Below the pieces are notes generated by a model. It did not search any database and was not told the origin of the DNA. It saw nothing but the letters and a program-made list of their open reading frames with translations. From Planctomycetota bacterium (GTDB taxonomy: Bacteria > Planctomycetota > B15-G4): a DNA stretch of 64,000 nt. Of the stretch, positions 6,036 through 15,719 are shown one piece after another. Made by a program: the position numbers and the translations under genes. The stretch spans positions 1 to 64,000 of the forward strand of contig JAQWOM010000028.1 of the NCBI GenBank assembly GCA_029245865.1, given 5' to 3'. Position 1 is the stretch's first letter. The number at the start of each line of letters is the position of its first letter.

Positions 6036-7151
6036 ATGACCACGCCAACCGCGCTCAAGCACACGCCCCTCACGGCCCTCCATGAAGCCGCCGGCGCGCG
6101 CCTTGTCGACTTTTCCGGTTACCTGATGCCCGTGCAGTATGACGCCATCATGGATGAAGTTGTCCGCGTTCGGACAAAGGTTGGCTTGTTCGATCTCTGT
6201 CATATGGGGCGCTGCCGGATCACTGGCGCGCGCGCGATCGAGGCGGCCCAATTCCTGGTGCACGTCAACGTTCACACCATGAAGGTCGGTGCGATCCGCT
6301 ATTCCTTCTTTGCGCGCGAAGATGGCACGACCATGGACGACGTCCTGGTCTACAAAGAAGAAGACTCTGTTTTCTTCTGCATCAACGCAGGCAATCGCGA
6401 ACGCGATCTGGTGTGGATGCGAGAAGTTGCAGCACGCTACGACTGCGAGATCGAAGACCTCTCAGACGAGTTGGCCATGATTGCCCTCCAAGGCCCCGCC
6501 TCACTCGAGGTCATTGCGCCACTCATGGGCATCGACTCCACCGAACTGAACGAGATGAAGTACTACTCGTTCCGGCAAGGTCAGGTGGGTGGTGTTCCCG
6601 CGATGATCTCGAGAACGGGTTACACCGGCGAAGACGGTTTCGAAATCTACTTTGACGCCGACATGGCTCAGGATCTGTGGCAGTCCATCCTGGAAGCCGG
6701 AGAGGACTTCGGCCTCACGCCCATCGGGCTCGCCGCTCGTGACACGCTACGGCTCGAGGCGGGGATGGCGTTGTACGGTCACGAGTTGGATGACACCACG
6801 AATCCGGTCGAGGCTGGCATCGTGTTCCGCCCCATCAAGCACACTCATGACTTCTCCGGCCGAGCTGCGATTGAAGCGATGCTGGAGACGGGCCCTGAGC
6901 GCGTCCTCGTGGGCTTCACAGCCGATGGCCCGCGCGTCCCGCGCCAGGGCTATGAGCTGGTTTCGCTGGATCACACGCCTATCGGCAAGGTCGTCAGCGG
7001 ATCCCCCTCGCCCACCCTGAACAAGAACATCGGCACGGCCTATGTGGTCAGCGGACACGACGCCCCTGGCACGCGCATGGCCATGGAGATCAGCGGCAAA
7101 CGCTACGAGGTCACATTGCACGCCCTGCCTTTCTACAAACGTTCACGTTGA
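6036..7151 (+). CDS. gcvT: aminomethyltransferase (glycine cleavage system T protein)
   Basis: 371 aa; LFDLCHMGRCRITG, ALQGP, SRTGYTGEDGFEIY, ARDTLRLEAGMALYGHEL. Confidence 0.95.
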   Translation: MTTPTALKHTPLTALHEAAGARLVDFSGYLMPVQYDAIMDEVVRVRTKVGLFDLCHMGRCRITGARAIEAAQFLVHVNVHTMKVGAIRYSFFAREDGTTMDDVLVYKEEDSVFFCINAGNRERDLVWMREVAARYDCEIEDLSDELAMIALQGPASLEVIAPLMGIDSTELNEMKYYSFRQGQVGGVPAMISRTGYTGEDGFEIYFDADMAQDLWQSILEAGEDFGLTPIGLAARDTLRLEAGMALYGHELDDTTNPVEAGIVFRPIKHTHDFSGRAAIEAMLETGPERVLVGFTADGPRVPRQGYELVSLDHTPIGKVVSGSPSPTLNKNIGTAYVVSGHDAPGTRMAMEISGKRYEVTLHALPFYKRSR

Positions 7152-7219
7152 ACGGATGCATCTGGGGGGCTATCCCCCACGAATCCCATCACACACCTTC
7201 TGCAGGAGATGTTCGAAGG

Positions 7220-7600
7220 ATGAGCAACCCGAGCGACCTGAAGTACACAGAGAGCCACGAGTGGGTCCGAATCGACGGTGAAACCGCGACCATCGGGATC
7301 ACTGCACATGCAGCCGCGAGCCTCTCCGATCTCGTCTTTCTGGAACTGCCCGATGTGGGAGACACCGTCTCCTCGGGAGACTCTTTTGGCGAAATCGAAT
7401 CTGTGAAAGCCGTTTCCGATCTGAAGAGTCCCGTCAACGGCGAAGTCACCGGCTCCAATCACGCACTTGAAGACGATCTGAAGGTGATCAACGCCGATCC
7501 CTACGGAGATGGCTGGTTGATCAAGGTCACCACCAGCGAAATCCCGGGGGGGCTGATGGATGTCAGCGCCTATGAACAACACGTTGCCGCTGAGGCCTGA
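7220..7600 (+). CDS. gcvH: glycine cleavage system H protein
   Basis: MSNPSDLKYTESHEWVRIDG...GEIESVKAVSDLKSPVNGEV contains the lipoyl-Lys motif ESVKA. Confidence 0.95.
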   Translation: MSNPSDLKYTESHEWVRIDGETATIGITAHAAASLSDLVFLELPDVGDTVSSGDSFGEIESVKAVSDLKSPVNGEVTGSNHALEDDLKVINADPYGDGWLIKVTTSEIPGGLMDVSAYEQHVAAEA

Positions 7601-7641
7601 CACCACAACACGCTTCACATCACCACCCGGAACATTCCACC

Positions 7642-8982
7642 GTGACGTACGTCCAGAATACTGAACAGAACCAAGCTGACATGCTTGCCGCCATTGGAAT
7701 GGCAAGCACGGACGAACTCTGGAAGGTCATTCCGGAGGACTGTCTCTTCGACGGTTCACTCGACGTCGGACCAGCGCTTACCGAAGATTCACTTGTGCGT
7801 CATATGCGTGAGATTGCGAAGCGCAACGTCACCGCAGACGACATGCCGAGTTTTCTGGGTGCCGGGGCATACCGACACTTCTGCCCGGCTTTGGTAGACA
7901 ACCTCGTTTCACGCACCGAGTTCTGGACGGCCTACACGCCGTATCAGCCAGAAGCGAGTCAGGGCACGCTGACGACGATCTATGAGTTCCAGACCCTCAT
8001 GTGCCGTATCACAGGCATGGAGGTAAGCAATGCCTCGGTCTACGACGGTGCCACCGCTGTCATCGAAGGCGTCATGCTTGCACTGCGCGCCAAGCGCAAG
8101 GCCAAGCGCGTGCTGGTCAGTAAGGGCCTTCACCCGGACACACTCGCCGTCCTGCACACGTACCTGAAACACCTGGATATCGACGTGGTGGAGGTGGACC
8201 TCGTCGACGGAGCGACGCCAACCGAGGCCATCTCCGGCGACGCCGTGGCAGCCGTTGCATTCCAGAGCCCGAATTTTTACGGCGTCCTCGAAGATGTGAC
8301 CGCGCTCTCTGCAGCGGCCCACGAACTCGAGGCCCTGTCAGTCGTCTCGGTCGATCCGATCTCGCTTTCGGTGATCGAAGCCCCCGGCAAGCAAGGCGCA
8401 GATGTTGTCTGCGGAGAGGGCACGCCCATGGGCAACGAGCCCTGGTACGGCGGCCCAGGCTTCGGCTTTCTTTGCAGCAAGATGGACATGGTTCGGCAGA
8501 TGCCCGCACGTATTGCCGGCGAAACGACCGATGACGACGGCAACCGCGCGGTCGTTCTGACCTTCCAGACCCGAGAGCAACACATCCGCCGCAAGAAGGC
8601 GACGAGCAACATTTGCACGAGTCAGCAGTTGATGGCTTTGCGAGCCACCATCTGGGCTTCACTGCTCGGCAAGCAAGGATTTGCGGACCTTGGCAAAACG
8701 AATCTCAGCCGCGCGCACTACGCCGCGAAACGCCTTGCCGAACTTCCCGGATGGTCACTGACCTACCCCGAGCGCTCCTTTTTCAAGGAGTTCTGCGTGA
8801 CCACACCTTTGCCCGCAGCGGAACTCAATGACCGCCTGCTCAAGGAGCACGGCATCCTTGGTGGCTTTGACCTCGGGCGTCTCGATGAAAAACGGAAAAA
8901 CGACTGGCTCGTCTCCGTGACCGACCTCGTAACACGCGAAGACATCGATCGCCTGGTCGATGCACTTCAGGGAATGGCCTGA
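7642..8982 (+). CDS. gcvPA: glycine dehydrogenase (decarboxylating) subunit 1
   Basis: 446 aa; FLGAGAYRHFCPALVDNLVSRTEFWTAYTPYQPEASQGTLTTIYEFQTLMCRITGMEVSNASVYDGATA. Confidence 0.95.
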   Translation: MTYVQNTEQNQADMLAAIGMASTDELWKVIPEDCLFDGSLDVGPALTEDSLVRHMREIAKRNVTADDMPSFLGAGAYRHFCPALVDNLVSRTEFWTAYTPYQPEASQGTLTTIYEFQTLMCRITGMEVSNASVYDGATAVIEGVMLALRAKRKAKRVLVSKGLHPDTLAVLHTYLKHLDIDVVEVDLVDGATPTEAISGDAVAAVAFQSPNFYGVLEDVTALSAAAHELEALSVVSVDPISLSVIEAPGKQGADVVCGEGTPMGNEPWYGGPGFGFLCSKMDMVRQMPARIAGETTDDDGNRAVVLTFQTREQHIRRKKATSNICTSQQLMALRATIWASLLGKQGFADLGKTNLSRAHYAAKRLAELPGWSLTYPERSFFKEFCVTTPLPAAELNDRLLKEHGILGGFDLGRLDEKRKNDWLVSVTDLVTREDIDRLVDALQGMA

Positions 8983-8983
8983 C

Positions 8984-10513
8984 GTGAGCACCGCAGAAGT
9001 GACAAGAAACGTGAATACGCCCGCCTGCCCTGCCGACTCGGCCGATAAGGCCTCGCTGCCACTAACGATTTTCGAAAAATCGAGCCCAGGAAGGCACGGC
9101 GTCGCCACCCCCTCGACAGACGTGCCCGATGTCGACCCGGCCAGCGTGCTCCCCAAGAGCGCCGTACGTGCAGAGGTCGCAGAGTTGCCCGAGGTCGGCG
9201 AACTCGACGTCCAACGCCATTACACGCACCTCTCAACGCTTAACTTCTCGATTGCCAATGCGTTCTATCCGCTTGGCTCGTGCACGATGAAGTACAACCC
9301 GCTCGTGAACGAAAAGGTCTGCGCTCTGCCCGGCTTTGCAGCCTTGCATCCGATGCAGACGGACGACCAGGCACAAGGCATGCTTGAGTTGTACTGGAGG
9401 CTCGAGCATCTCCTTTGCGAAGTGTCTGGCCTTGATGCCGTGAGCATTCACCCAACTGCTGGAGCCCATGGCGAGCTCACGGCGCTCATGGTGATGCGCA
9501 AGTACCTCGATGATCATGGTCAAGCCGAGCGCAAGGTCATTCTCATCCCGGATAGCGCCCATGGGACCAACCCGGCTTCCTGCACGATGGCCGGCTTCAC
9601 CACTCGTGAGCTGAAGAGTGATGCACGTGGCCGTGTAGACATGGAGGCACTCGACAACGTTCTGGGTGCAGACGTTGCAGGGCTCATGATCACCAACCCT
9701 TCAACGCTTGGCCTGTTCGAACCCAACATCAAGAGGATCTGCGACAAGATCCACGAGGTTGGCGGGCTCGTCTACATGGATGGCGCCAACATGAACGCCA
9801 TTCTCGGGCGCACACGCCCGGGCGACTTTGGCGTCGACGTCATGCACTTCAACCTGCACAAGACGTTTAGTCAACCTCATGGTGGGGGTGGTCCAGGCGC
9901 AGGCCCGATCGCCGTAACCGAGGCACTCGCACCCTACTTACCCGTACCGAAAGTCGAAAAGGATGGCGACCGATTCCGGATCGTGCGCTGCTCGGAGAAG
10001 AGCATTGGTACGACACGCGGCTTCCTTGGAAACTCGGGTGTCGTGGTGCGCGCCTACTCCTACATTCGTTCGCTCGGAGAGCGTGGCCTGCTGCGTGTCT
10101 CTGAAAATGCGGTCCTGAATGCCAACTACCTCCGCATCAAGCTGCAAGACAGCTACCGTGTGTGGGTCAATGAAACCTGCATGCATGAGTTCGTCGCCAC
10201 GGCCAAGGGGCTGCCCAATGACATCAAGGCGACGGACATTGCCAAGCGGCTGATTGACTACGGAATCCACCCGCCAACGATTTACTTCCCGCTCATTGTC
10301 CCCGAGGCGCTCATGATCGAGCCCACGGAGACAGAGTCGAAAGAGACGCTCGACAAGTTCGTCGCTGCGATGAAGGCCATCCGCGCTGAATGTGACACGG
10401 CCCCCGAGACACTCAAACACGCGCCCCACTCCCGAAGCATTGGGCGCCCCGATGAGGTCAAGGCCGTGAAGGAACCGCGGATCACGTACGAGGGCGACAA
10501 CAAGTCCCGGTAG
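8984..10513 (+). CDS. gcvPB: glycine dehydrogenase (decarboxylating) subunit 2
   Basis: PLP-Lys motif HFNLHKTFSQPHGGGGPGAGP; YPLGSCTMKYNP; likely GTG start 2 nt after the gcvPA stop. Confidence 0.95.
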   Translation: MSTAEVTRNVNTPACPADSADKASLPLTIFEKSSPGRHGVATPSTDVPDVDPASVLPKSAVRAEVAELPEVGELDVQRHYTHLSTLNFSIANAFYPLGSCTMKYNPLVNEKVCALPGFAALHPMQTDDQAQGMLELYWRLEHLLCEVSGLDAVSIHPTAGAHGELTALMVMRKYLDDHGQAERKVILIPDSAHGTNPASCTMAGFTTRELKSDARGRVDMEALDNVLGADVAGLMITNPSTLGLFEPNIKRICDKIHEVGGLVYMDGANMNAILGRTRPGDFGVDVMHFNLHKTFSQPHGGGGPGAGPIAVTEALAPYLPVPKVEKDGDRFRIVRCSEKSIGTTRGFLGNSGVVVRAYSYIRSLGERGLLRVSENAVLNANYLRIKLQDSYRVWVNETCMHEFVATAKGLPNDIKATDIAKRLIDYGIHPPTIYFPLIVPEALMIEPTETESKETLDKFVAAMKAIRAECDTAPETLKHAPHSRSIGRPDEVKAVKEPRITYEGDNKSR

Positions 10514-10523
10514 AATCCGGCAC

Positions 10524-11963
10524 ATGTCCGACCCCACGCCTTCATCCGCCACGCTCTCGGTTCTTCGCGACCGGTTCGGCCATGAAGCGCTGTTCCCGCT
10601 GCAAGCCCGCGTGGTGGCACAGATCATGAAGGGCGGTGATGCCCTGGTCGTCATGCCCACGGGCTCTGGCAAGAGCCTTTGCTTCCAGCTACCTGCGCTG
10701 GCCATGCCAGGGCCTGGAACGACCGTGGTGTTCAGCCCTCTCATTGCCCTCATGGAGGATCAGGTCGCAGCCCTCTGCAAAAAGGGAATCAAGGCGCAGT
10801 ACATCAACAGCACGCTTCGGCGCAGTGAGCGAGAAACGCGTTACGCTCAGCTAGCAGACGGCGCCTACGACTTGATCTACGCCACGCCCGAGCGGATGGA
10901 CAAACCAGAGTTCCTGGAAGCTCTCGACGCGATGCCCGGTGGCGTGCGCCTGCTGGCTATCGATGAAGCGCACTGCATCACCAAGTGGGGACATGACTTC
11001 CGGCCCGCCTATCAGCGCGTTGGCGAATTCCGAAAACGCCTTGGCTGCCCTCCCACCCTTGCTCTCACGGCCACGGCAACTCCAGAGGTACGTACCGACA
11101 TCCGGCGCACGCTTGGGCTCACCGAGGAGTCACTGCCTTTGTTCGCCAGCGGTATTGACCGGCCGAATCTCTCCCTGGAGGTTCGCAACTGCTGGGACGA
11201 CGACGAGAAGCTGGAACAAATTCGCAACATCACCCTCTCCTTGCCTGGCACGGGCATCGTCTACTTTTCACTCATCAAGCAACTCGATCACTTCGCCTCC
11301 AGGATTCGTGAACTAGACCTGCCCATCCAACTGGCTCTCTACAACGGCAAGCTCTCACCCGGTGAAAAAAAGCGTGTCTACAACCGGTTCATCGATGCAG
11401 TCCCAGAGGAACGCCTGCTGCTTCTGGCGACCAATGCCTTCGGTATGGGCGTCGACAAATCAGACATTCGGTTCATCATCCACGCTCAGTTGCCCGGATC
11501 CGTGGAAGCCTATTACCAGGAGGTCGGCCGAGCAGGGCGAGACGGCGAACCGTCGCTCTGCGCTCTCCTTTACTGCCAAGACGATCTGGCGATCCAGCAG
11601 CAGTTCGTTGACTGGCTCAACCCATCCAAAAAGCTCTATGAAGAGGCCACGCGTGTCCTCGAAACATGGCCCCACGGTGAATTCACTGTCGATGACGTGC
11701 GCCCCTTGATCATCGCGCGTGACCGCGGAGACCGTCGCGCAGAAGCGGCACTCACAACATTGGTAAGCCTGGGCGTCGTCAAGCAGAGCAACTCCCCCGA
11801 CCACTACCGCTTCGTACGCCCGCTTCGCCCTGGCGAAATCTCTGAGAGAGAACTCGAAAAGAAGCGCGAACTCGACCTGCGCCGCCTGCTGGACATGGTG
11901 CAACTGGCCAAATCTGAAGACCTTCGCCGGGACATCAAGGCCTACTTCCAGTTGGACGACTGA
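10524..11963 (+). CDS. recQ: RecQ-family DNA helicase lacking the zinc-binding and HRDC regions
   Basis: MPTGSGKSLCFQLPAL, DEAHCITKWGHDFRPAY, ATATPEVRTDI, YYQEVGRAGRDGEPS; ends at DIKAYFQLDD. Confidence 0.9.
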   Translation: MSDPTPSSATLSVLRDRFGHEALFPLQARVVAQIMKGGDALVVMPTGSGKSLCFQLPALAMPGPGTTVVFSPLIALMEDQVAALCKKGIKAQYINSTLRRSERETRYAQLADGAYDLIYATPERMDKPEFLEALDAMPGGVRLLAIDEAHCITKWGHDFRPAYQRVGEFRKRLGCPPTLALTATATPEVRTDIRRTLGLTEESLPLFASGIDRPNLSLEVRNCWDDDEKLEQIRNITLSLPGTGIVYFSLIKQLDHFASRIRELDLPIQLALYNGKLSPGEKKRVYNRFIDAVPEERLLLLATNAFGMGVDKSDIRFIIHAQLPGSVEAYYQEVGRAGRDGEPSLCALLYCQDDLAIQQQFVDWLNPSKKLYEEATRVLETWPHGEFTVDDVRPLIIARDRGDRRAEAALTTLVSLGVVKQSNSPDHYRFVRPLRPGEISERELEKKRELDLRRLLDMVQLAKSEDLRRDIKAYFQLDD

Positions 11964-12068: not shown

Positions 12069-12683
12069 TCAGTCGTTCAGCGCCTCGTGCACTCGGCCGA
12101 CCATCTTTGCCGATGGCTTGAGAGTCGCATCGCCCTCATCTTTCCACTTCGAAGGGCAGCCCTCGTCGGTCTTCTTGGCGAGATACATATTCGCTTTGAA
12201 GAGCCGCATGAGTTCGTCGATGTTCCGGCCCATGTTCAAGAAGTTCACAGCGCCATTCATCAGTTGCCCTGCTGGGCTGATGATGAATGTGCCGCGCAGC
12301 GGCAAGCCGGCATCTTCCAGATACACGCCAAACATCCGAGCAAGACTGCCGGTGGGATCGGCTCCCATCGGGTACTTCACATCTGCAAGTTGCTTCTCTT
12401 CACGCTGCCAGGCGAGATGCGTGAACTGCGTGTCACAACTGACGGTCACAACCTCTGCACCCAACTTCACAAACCGCTCGTACTGCTCTGCCAGAGCAGC
12501 GAATTCGGTCGCTCATACAAAGGTGAAGTCGGCGGGGTAGAAGAACAAGATGCTCCACTTCCCGGCCTTTGTGTTTTCAGCGAGACTGAATTCGCCGAAA
12601 TCCTTGGTCTTGGGGTCAAATGTCGTCAACTTGAAGTCGGGCACGATCTGCCCAACCTGAATGCCAGACGATGAGTCGGTCAT
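12069..12683 (-). CDS. AhpC/TSA-family 2-Cys-type peroxiredoxin with in-frame UGA at the peroxidatic position (probable selenoprotein)
   Basis: Same-frame halves MTDSSSGIQVGQIVPDF...[10 protein letters not shown] and [32 protein letters not shown]...EGCPSKWKDEGDATLKPS separated only by TGA (12515-12513); canonical sequence is FTFVCPTE. Confidence 0.88.
12477..12503 (-). promoter_or_regulatory. candidate bacterial SECIS hairpin
   Basis: Minus-strand TTCG-CTGCTCT-GGC-AGAGCAG-TA-CGAG: perfect 7-bp stem, GGC loop starting 21 nt after the UGA, lower 4-bp stem across a 2-nt bulge. Confidence 0.7.
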
Positions 12684-12875
12684 GGGATTACCTCGCATAG
12701 AAAAGGCATAGAAAAGTCGGCCGGGGCCGCGCCCATCGTGGTCGATCGCCATGCCTCGCATGCGCTCCCACGAGCCGACCAGTGTATCAACGAGTCTCCT
12801 CCACGGGCACCGCCAGCCCCCCCTGGCAACCACAGGTGGCGCCCCTTCGGGCCCGGCGGTAAAGTTTGCTCCAAC

Positions 12876-15719
12876 ATGTGTGCTTTGAACGTTCCCGCAG
12901 TCATTCGGCCGCTCTTGCTGCTCCTCGCAGCTGCGACCCCCCTCAGTTGTGGCAACTCTGAGCCAGAACTAGCCGTAGGGCGCGTTCACGACCTCTATGC
13001 CCTTTTCGGAACGGCCGCTGTTCAGAGCGCCGAAAAGTTCGAAGAGCCTCCTCAGTCGCTCTTCCGACTCGTCTATCTGGACAACAAAGTAGACGACCGG
13101 GATCGCGTGGCCTCCATTCATGCCCCAACTCCCACCAGCCTGATCTGGCGAGACCTGGACACCTACGGAGAGGCACAGCTGACCTTCGGCCTCGGAGTCG
13201 TCCCCCTCTCCACGGAACCCGCACCAGTTCCCGTCGTCTTCCGCATTGAAGGCCGCGAAGAAAGCCTCGAAGACGCAGAGTTCATCACTCTGTTCGAAGA
13301 AACACTCACACCGACAGACCTTGCCAACCCGAAAGAGATTCTCCGTCGCAGCGTGTCATTGCCGAAGTCACCTGACGCACGCTGGACACTCCGCTTCACC
13401 ACCACTCTTGCCGGCAAGCGCGGACGACAAAACTGGCCCGGATGGTTCGAACCCATTCTTCGCTCCGAAGGGCAACAGGTCGATCGAGCAGAGTCCCCCT
13501 TGGTGGTGCGCACTGTTTACGAAGACCTGGTCACCTCGCTCGACCAAGCAGAAGTGCACCAAGAAAATTCAGCGAGCCCCGTACAAACCAGTGCCTTCGA
13601 CGCAGGTCTCGAAGTCCCGGGTCGCGGGCGTTTCCGCGCCCACCAGCTGACGACATTCAAGAACTTCACGTCCAACGCCCGCCGAGCCGAACGCGCCGTC
13701 AAACACGACGGTGATCAGGCTCCGCCCTCCCTCGACCTGCGTGACGCGGACGGGAGCCATGCCGTCGAACCCGCGGACGAGCGCCCACCCGAGAACGCCT
13801 TCGAGCGCGCCTGGGCACAAAGCGTGCTGCAAGCGGCCAAAGAGCGTTTGCGCGCCGACTATAGCGCGCGAGGTCGTGCGGTCATCTTTGATGGGTTGCT
13901 TCAGTACCTGGGCGGCGCGGAAGTTTCCCACGCGGACACGGCTCAAGCGCTGGGCATGACGGAAGGTGCGGTGCGCGTGGCTGTGGGCCGGCTGCGCCAG
14001 ACCTTCGGCGTGGCTCTGCGGGCGGAAATCGCCCAGACCCTGACAGATCCGGTCGTTGGCGGGCGCCGAACGCTCGTGTCGGCTGCCGCACCAAGTCGCA
14101 TTTCTTGGCGTCTCGACATACCCAGCAACAGCACGTTGGACTTTGCCGTTGGCATGGATAGCGAGCATGGCTGGGCCCGGCCTGGCGACGGAATGACTTT
14201 TGCCGTCGAGATCGATGCTGAACGCATCTGGGAACTCACGCTGAATCCGCATTCGGTGGTCAATGACCGGGGCTGGAATCCGGCAAGCATAGACCTCACC
14301 CCTTGGGCCGGAACAACGATTGAACTCTCCCTGGTGACAGAGACCGGCGCCGACCCGGCCAACGATGTCGGGGGGTGGGCGAACTTGCGAGTTCTACGCG
14401 ACACGCACACCCGCCGACTTGCGCGTGGAGAAGCACCAAACGTCCTCGTGCTGCTCATGGACACGCTTCGTGCCGACCGTTTCGGCAGCTATGGCAACCC
14501 CAACAATCTCACTCCGCAGATGGATGCGCTTGCGGCCAACGGAATCCGGTTCGCCAACGCCCGCACGGTCGCCTCCTACACATGGCCATCCACAGCCTCG
14601 CTTTTCACAGGGCTCTACCCCCACGCCCACGGGGTGCTGAGCAATGGACAGGCCTTCCTGGTCGACCGAGTCGAAACCCTCGCCGAACTCTTCTCGCAAG
14701 CCGGTTACACGACCGGCGCTTTTGTTGCCAACCCACTGATCAGTCCGTGGGGCAACTTCCAGCAAGGCTTCGAGAGCTTTGTGAATGCACCCGCAGTGCG
14801 TGCACGAGCTCTCAACGAGCGTGTCACTCACTGGCTGGAAGGTCGAGAGGGCAATGCACTCTTCACCTACGTTCACTACTTCGACCCTCACAACCCCTAC
14901 AACCCTCCTGAAGGGTATGCGCCGGGCGACAACTACTCGCAAGACGACACAGTCTCCCTACCCCACGTTGAAGCCATCTACTCGGATGTCGTCTGGGACA
15001 AAAATCAGCGGCGCGACTTCAAGATGCAAAACAGCAGCAACCTTCAGAACTACGACGCCGAGGTCATGTACCAAGACGCAGCAATCGGCGAACTTCTAAG
15101 CGAATGGGACCGTCGCGGCCTTCTCGAAAACACCCTTGTCGTGCTGATGTCGGATCACGGAGAAGAATTCTTTGAGCACGGCCGCCCTTTTCACGGCCCC
15201 AATCTTTATGACGAAAGCCTCTTCATCCCACTCATCGTGACGGGCTTCGGAGAGGCGGCCTTGCAGCCGAGCGTTGTAGAGCAGCCGGTACAGATCACCG
15301 ACGTCTTGCCGACTTTATGTGCTCTCGCCGGGGTCGACCGCCCCCAGAAGTCACTGGACGGCCGACCGCTCATCGAAAACGGTCGCGCGTCACCCAAGAT
15401 CCGCTCCGACGAACCGCTCTACTGCATCTCGATGAACGGCGAAGCCAAAGGCATCGAAGGAATGACGGAAAAACTCGCGATCCTCTGGTCACCCTGGAAG
15501 CTGATCTACACCCCAGCCATCAACGACATCGAGCTGTACCGTCTCGATCTTGACCCAGGTGAGTTGGACAACTTGGCCCAGAGCGAACCAGCAGTCCGCG
15601 AGCGATTGATGAACTCACTCGAAAGCTGGCTGACAGAAGCCGTGGAAACTGGCGCACAAGACACTCGCGTGACCCCTGAGCAGGCCTGGTTCCTGAAGCA
15701 GCTGGGCTACACGAAGTAA
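12876..15719 (+). CDS. exported alkaline-phosphatase-superfamily (sulfatase-like) protein with internal ECF-sigma-like segment
   Basis: Signal peptide MCALNVPAVIRPLLLLLAAATPLSCG; sulfatase core NVLVLLMDTLRADRFGSYGN...TWPSTASLFTGLYPHAHG...VLMSDHGEEFFEHG; residues ~246-392 resemble an ECF sigma factor. Confidence 0.88.
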   Translation: MCALNVPAVIRPLLLLLAAATPLSCGNSEPELAVGRVHDLYALFGTAAVQSAEKFEEPPQSLFRLVYLDNKVDDRDRVASIHAPTPTSLIWRDLDTYGEAQLTFGLGVVPLSTEPAPVPVVFRIEGREESLEDAEFITLFEETLTPTDLANPKEILRRSVSLPKSPDARWTLRFTTTLAGKRGRQNWPGWFEPILRSEGQQVDRAESPLVVRTVYEDLVTSLDQAEVHQENSASPVQTSAFDAGLEVPGRGRFRAHQLTTFKNFTSNARRAERAVKHDGDQAPPSLDLRDADGSHAVEPADERPPENAFERAWAQSVLQAAKERLRADYSARGRAVIFDGLLQYLGGAEVSHADTAQALGMTEGAVRVAVGRLRQTFGVALRAEIAQTLTDPVVGGRRTLVSAAAPSRISWRLDIPSNSTLDFAVGMDSEHGWARPGDGMTFAVEIDAERIWELTLNPHSVVNDRGWNPASIDLTPWAGTTIELSLVTETGADPANDVGGWANLRVLRDTHTRRLARGEAPNVLVLLMDTLRADRFGSYGNPNNLTPQMDALAANGIRFANARTVASYTWPSTASLFTGLYPHAHGVLSNGQAFLVDRVETLAELFSQAGYTTGAFVANPLISPWGNFQQGFESFVNAPAVRARALNERVTHWLEGREGNALFTYVHYFDPHNPYNPPEGYAPGDNYSQDDTVSLPHVEAIYSDVVWDKNQRRDFKMQNSSNLQNYDAEVMYQDAAIGELLSEWDRRGLLENTLVVLMSDHGEEFFEHGRPFHGPNLYDESLFIPLIVTGFGEAALQPSVVEQPVQITDVLPTLCALAGVDRPQKSLDGRPLIENGRASPKIRSDEPLYCISMNGEAKGIEGMTEKLAILWSPWKLIYTPAINDIELYRLDLDPGELDNLAQSEPAVRERLMNSLESWLTEAVETGAQDTRVTPEQAWFLKQLGYTK

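Follow-up and report, generated by a model that had tools for sequence, protein, structure and literature searches.

A probable selenocysteine-containing AhpC-type peroxiredoxin and its conserved SECIS-like hairpin in Planctomycetota and other bacterial phyla

The locus, its reading frame and the encoded protein

The window, the whole stretch of 64,000 nucleotides analysed, carries on its forward strand gcvT, gcvH, gcvPA and gcvPB in a row (6036-10513), and, after them, a RecQ-like helicase gene (10524-11963), as read by eye, and further on a 993-aa ORF (12738-15719) that is sulfatase-domain-like and contains a sigma-factor-like stretch in the middle of the protein. Beside this ORF, and divergent from it, lies a peroxiredoxin gene that comprises the following features:

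12069..12683, reverse strand: coding sequence of the predicted Sec-AhpC peroxiredoxin, from ATG 12683 to the stop TGA at 12071-12069; 204 aa including one Sec
12688..12696, reverse strand: probable ribosome-binding site GCGAGGTAA upstream of ATG 12683, proposed from inspection of the sequence
12513..12515, reverse strand: in-frame UGA, putative Sec codon (U57) at the position of the peroxidatic Cys; TGA in 71/76 orthologs (at least 58% identity)
12482..12500, reverse strand: predicted bacterial-type SECIS hairpin, stem GCUGCUCU / AGAGCAGU, loop GGC at 12492-12490; begins 12 nt 3' of the UGA
12156..12158, reverse strand: codon of the resolving Cys (C176, EGCPSKW); invariant in 70/70 UGA orthologs that cover the position

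The original prediction described two ORF fragments in one frame, split by a single TGA at 12515-12513, and both coordinates and frame were reproduced: the frame open from 12833 to 12069 on the reverse strand contains this TGA as its sole internal stop, residue 107 when counted from 12833. The upstream ORF, 12513-12833, holds as an open frame, not as the extent of the gene, position 12833 being merely the upstream limit of that frame; ATG 12683 is the likely start, because a GAGG lies just upstream and homology begins at this ATG, with the same N-terminus in many relatives. The TGA falls, as had been claimed, exactly at the peroxidatic Cys of an AhpC-type protein, since the flanks match and 71 of the 76 orthologs likewise have TGA there, which excludes chance; the resolving Cys, described as intact, is present in DEGCPSKW. 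Constraint on the protein persists 3' of the UGA, with a pairwise pN of 0.167 versus a pS of 0.74.

The window protein matches the Pfam family AhpC-TSA with 124.5 bits against a cut-off of 26. The AhpC model TIGR03137 (E=5.8e-54; 182.7 bits, curated cut-off 272) and the model NF040737, which bears the name PrxU (164.8 bits, curated cut-off 270), both score well under their cut-offs, so that no curated NCBIfam family claims the protein, and sequence comparison places it in a divergent AhpC subfamily. The features of a typical 2-Cys peroxiredoxin are present, namely the PxxxTxxC/U motif and a C-terminal resolving Cys, and among solved structures AhpC proteins come closest (PDB codes 1n8j, 1yep and 4o5r). 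Residues P50, T54, U57, A58-T59-E60 and C176 are invariant, or nearly so, across the clade. The Ala that follows U, singled out earlier as standing in place of Pro and as perhaps of mechanistic interest, is indeed the residue found; it is not peculiar to the window gene, being invariant throughout the clade, Cys members included, and is therefore a mark of the clade and not of the Sec residue. C83 (VSCDT), a conceivable third redox residue, was discarded as such, since it occurs in only 7 of 71 sequences.

Conservation of the UGA codon and of the downstream hairpin

The ortholog set comprises 72 loci from a scan in which each species was represented by one genome, together with loci from a further genome search, 76 in all, at 58% identity or more. 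The peroxidatic codon is TGA in 71 of them, two of which are duplicate retrievals of one species, and TGC in five (L017, L018, L019, L112 and L115). Wherever the UGA occurs, it is the sole internal stop. Extra disabling mutations, to which the original prediction had drawn attention, were found in none of the relatives, which have either TGA, or TGC without the hairpin. The titles and lineages of the orthologs include Planctomycetota, Nitrospirota, Acidobacteriota, Methylomirabilota, Rokubacteria, Krumholzibacteriota, Myxococcota, Thermodesulfobacteriota, Bipolaricaulota and Calditrichota, a few of these labels being perhaps blurred by the binning of metagenome-assembled genomes (MAGs); by this assignment, the gene and an identical 18-letter putative RNA signal occur in bacteria of at least eight phyla. 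The tree demands several changes between Sec and Cys, and places at least one Cys form, L112, well within a Nitrospirota group of UGA genes; resolution is poor at the deep forks, so that only cases of this kind give an indication of which way the change went. Among the genomes of Cys relatives, selA is not detectable in G004 and is kept in G002 and G012.

Immediately 3' of the UGA, 12 bases with variable synonymous sites precede the segment GCTGCTCTGGCAGAGCAG, within which the hairpin reads GCUGCUCU-GGC-AGAGCAG. All 18 letters of this segment recur exactly in 65 of 70 UGA genes. The remaining five comprise (i) four loop variants in which GGC is replaced by GUC (Ala65 to Ser), one of them also differing at the first base, and (ii) one compensatory change, in L111, where a U-A pair has become C-G at the cost of a Gln to Arg substitution. 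The GUC loops, which retain the first loop G, belong to loci L058, L059, L061 and L063, from MAGs labelled Geobacteraceae, Myxococcota and Planctomycetaceae.

The conservation resides in the nucleotides as well as in the residues. In 68 less-redundant UGA genes, codons 62-67 are, nearly without exception, GCT GCT CTG GCA GAG CAG; the adjacent codons 58-61, equally conserved as residues, use all synonyms. Accordingly, pairwise pS is 0.005 for codons 62-67 versus 0.84 for codons 58-61, 0.76 upstream and 0.74 downstream. The RNAalifold consensus of 70 sequences is an 8-bp hairpin with a 3-nt loop, and when the window segment was recoded synonymously, no more than 15 of 2000 variants matched the stability of the native fold; compared with dinucleotide shuffles, the folding energy of a 69-nt stretch is not significant (z -0.33). 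The case for the hairpin is one of conservation, not of energy. All five Cys orthologs lack the hairpin. Its 17-mer is found in 22 of 393 Planctomycetota genomes, in 21 of the 22 located 13 nt after the in-frame TGA of this gene, and the reversed 17-mer, taken as a control, has 0 occurrences in the same 393 genomes. The Rfam search of the 64-kb window returned no match. The loop is GGC or GUC with an invariant first G, which fits a SECIS stem-loop just 3' of the UGA with a G in its small apical loop, a recognised feature of the bacterial element (PMC1088965).

Selenocysteine machinery and genomic context

The host genome is a MAG of 3.33 Mb in 57 contigs, about 91% complete. A search for selA, selB, selC and selD, proposed with the original prediction, found all four:

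C23:78486-79568: selA, 390.8 bits
C23:73954-74046: tRNA-Sec (selC), anticodon UCA (tca), 75.5 bits
C23:77470-78390 (L010:11360-12430): selD, 339 bits, with an in-frame TGA of its own
C26:20168-22039: selB, score over the cut-off

The in-frame TGA of selD lies near the N-terminus (NYANCAG-U-AAKIPAQDL), at what we take to be the site of the SelD catalytic Cys/Sec, and the selD product is thus probably a selenoprotein itself. With selD and the peroxiredoxin gene each carrying an in-frame TGA, two genes of the genome point to UGA decoding. The window itself contains no tRNA according to ARAGORN. Co-occurrence with selA was dropped as proof, being weak: selA is present in 20 of 21 Planctomycetota genomes with the gene versus 17 of 25 without the motif, and none was detected in G094, a fragmented MAG that carries the gene.

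The commonest same-strand neighbours within 5 kb in the relatives encode a Fur-family regulator (16 loci), a flavodiiron-type protein (15), rubrerythrin (12) and desulfoferrodoxin (11), the neighbouring regulators being of Fur/PerR type. Anaerobes usually defend themselves against peroxide and superoxide with this set of proteins, and its proximity supports a role of the gene in peroxide defence. The window gene lies outside the oxidative-stress cluster found in the relatives; its own neighbours, the RecQ-like helicase gene and the sulfatase-like gene, both recognised by eye from the translations, add nothing on function. No match to the window was found in the plasmid collection.

As regards the reductant, no AhpF scores over the family cut-off in the host genome, and AhpF was rejected for this role, the only match being thioredoxin-reductase-like with an internal TAG. 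This frame (L146; host C16:6856-7776), which resembles thioredoxin reductase or AhpF and has that one internal TAG, is possibly a pseudogene or a frame-edge effect.

Interpretation, alternatives and relation to known selenoproteins

The locus is almost certainly a genuine selenoprotein gene, in which the UGA at 12515-12513 would be read as Sec by means of the hairpin to give an AhpC-type typical 2-Cys peroxiredoxin, so that the original prediction of a Sec peroxiredoxin is supported. In the proposed mechanism, the hairpin 12 nt downstream would recruit SelB and Sec-tRNA, with the ribosome decoding the UGA as selenocysteine; the U57 selenolate would attack the peroxide and be converted to a selenenic acid, with which the partner subunit's C176 would form a selenenylsulfide in the resolving step; recycling of the enzyme would fall to a thioredoxin-like reductant.

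A single base separates TGA from TGC or TGT, and a pseudogene or an assembly error, with the Cys codon mutated or misread, would produce the same interruption; such an origin is extremely improbable, because the TGA is shared by 71 of the 76 orthologs, protein constraint continues past the stop, and the hairpin is frozen in the TGA forms only. A base-call error is ruled out, as dozens of independent assemblies have the identical TGA. More generally, a pseudogene, a sequencing error or an ordinary stop appears very unlikely in view of the conservation of the UGA, a frozen hairpin absent from the Cys forms, the specificity of the motif and the presence of the Sec machinery.

A regulated or leaky UGA would yield a short N-terminal product, with readthrough inserting Trp, Cys or another residue and the hairpin serving as a readthrough or regulatory element instead of a SECIS. 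The hairpin is frozen beyond structural need, which could mean a second RNA function and to that extent favours this explanation; yet the UGA coincides with the catalytic residue, all of the Sec machinery is present in the genome, the position and loop G of the hairpin fit a bacterial SECIS, and Cys forms occur without it, making a leaky stop very improbable. Genome-wide reassignment of UGA to an ordinary amino acid has the in-frame TGA in its favour and nothing further, and its probability is vanishingly small: the peroxiredoxin gene itself terminates in TGA, neighbouring genes read normally with table 11, internal TGA is seen only in this gene and selD, and a tRNA-Sec is present.

Sec peroxiredoxins, including one of AhpC type, are already known as a kind, in agreement with an earlier remark that other bacteria have them. 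Comparison with the known systems highlights the following: (i) PrxU, isolated from Eubacterium (Peptoclostridium) acidaminophilum (Soehling 2001, as cited in PMC13188914), likewise has Sec at the peroxidatic position in a TxxU motif, whereas the window protein falls below the PrxU cut-off and its clade has Ala instead of Pro after U; (ii) the catalogued prokaryotic selenoprotein family 'Peroxiredoxin (Prx), TxxU' (PMC9312934, PMC13188914; sequences in PMC1794560, PMC1088965) shows the equivalent residue replaced and the same motif, but is filed under COG1225 (Bcp type; PMC9312934, PMC1088965), the window protein being of AhpC type and set apart by description; (iii) Blastococcus saxobsidens has an AhpC with Sec followed by a bacterial SECIS, likened here by description, but decodes UAG instead of UGA with a CUA tRNA-Sec and belongs to the Actinobacteria (PMC5330540); and (iv) AhpC itself (TIGR03137 and the three structures above) shares the fold family, the peroxidatic motif and the resolving Cys in (E)xCPxKW, the window protein differing by Sec in place of Cys, by its score and by a genome without AhpF over the cut-off.

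In the open-access literature searched, no report of an AhpC selenoprotein in Planctomycetota or Nitrospirota was found, and a widespread AhpC clade with a frozen SECIS, set apart from the catalogued Prx by description, appears to be undescribed there. A more far-reaching proposal, possible though somewhat doubtful, is that the clade (TFVUATEF) represents an undescribed subfamily of AhpC, present in at least eight phyla and containing Sec ancestrally, its frozen 18-nt coding SECIS being either recognised sequence-specifically by diverse SelB proteins or endowed with a further function as RNA, for instance in selenium-dependent control.

The gene would add a widespread selenoenzyme, presumably of peroxide defence, mostly in lineages known from metagenomes, where annotation pipelines would split it; the frozen hairpin provides an 18-nt signature with which raw DNA can be searched for the gene directly, and the Cys forms inside the clade may be seen as natural experiments on the consequences of doing without Sec. 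In a Planctomycetota genome from which the 17-nt hairpin motif of this clade is absent (G032), a second, distant peroxiredoxin type (L031:1483-2031; about 40% identity) has a TGA in frame at the peroxidatic position, with Pro as the next residue (TFVUPTE).
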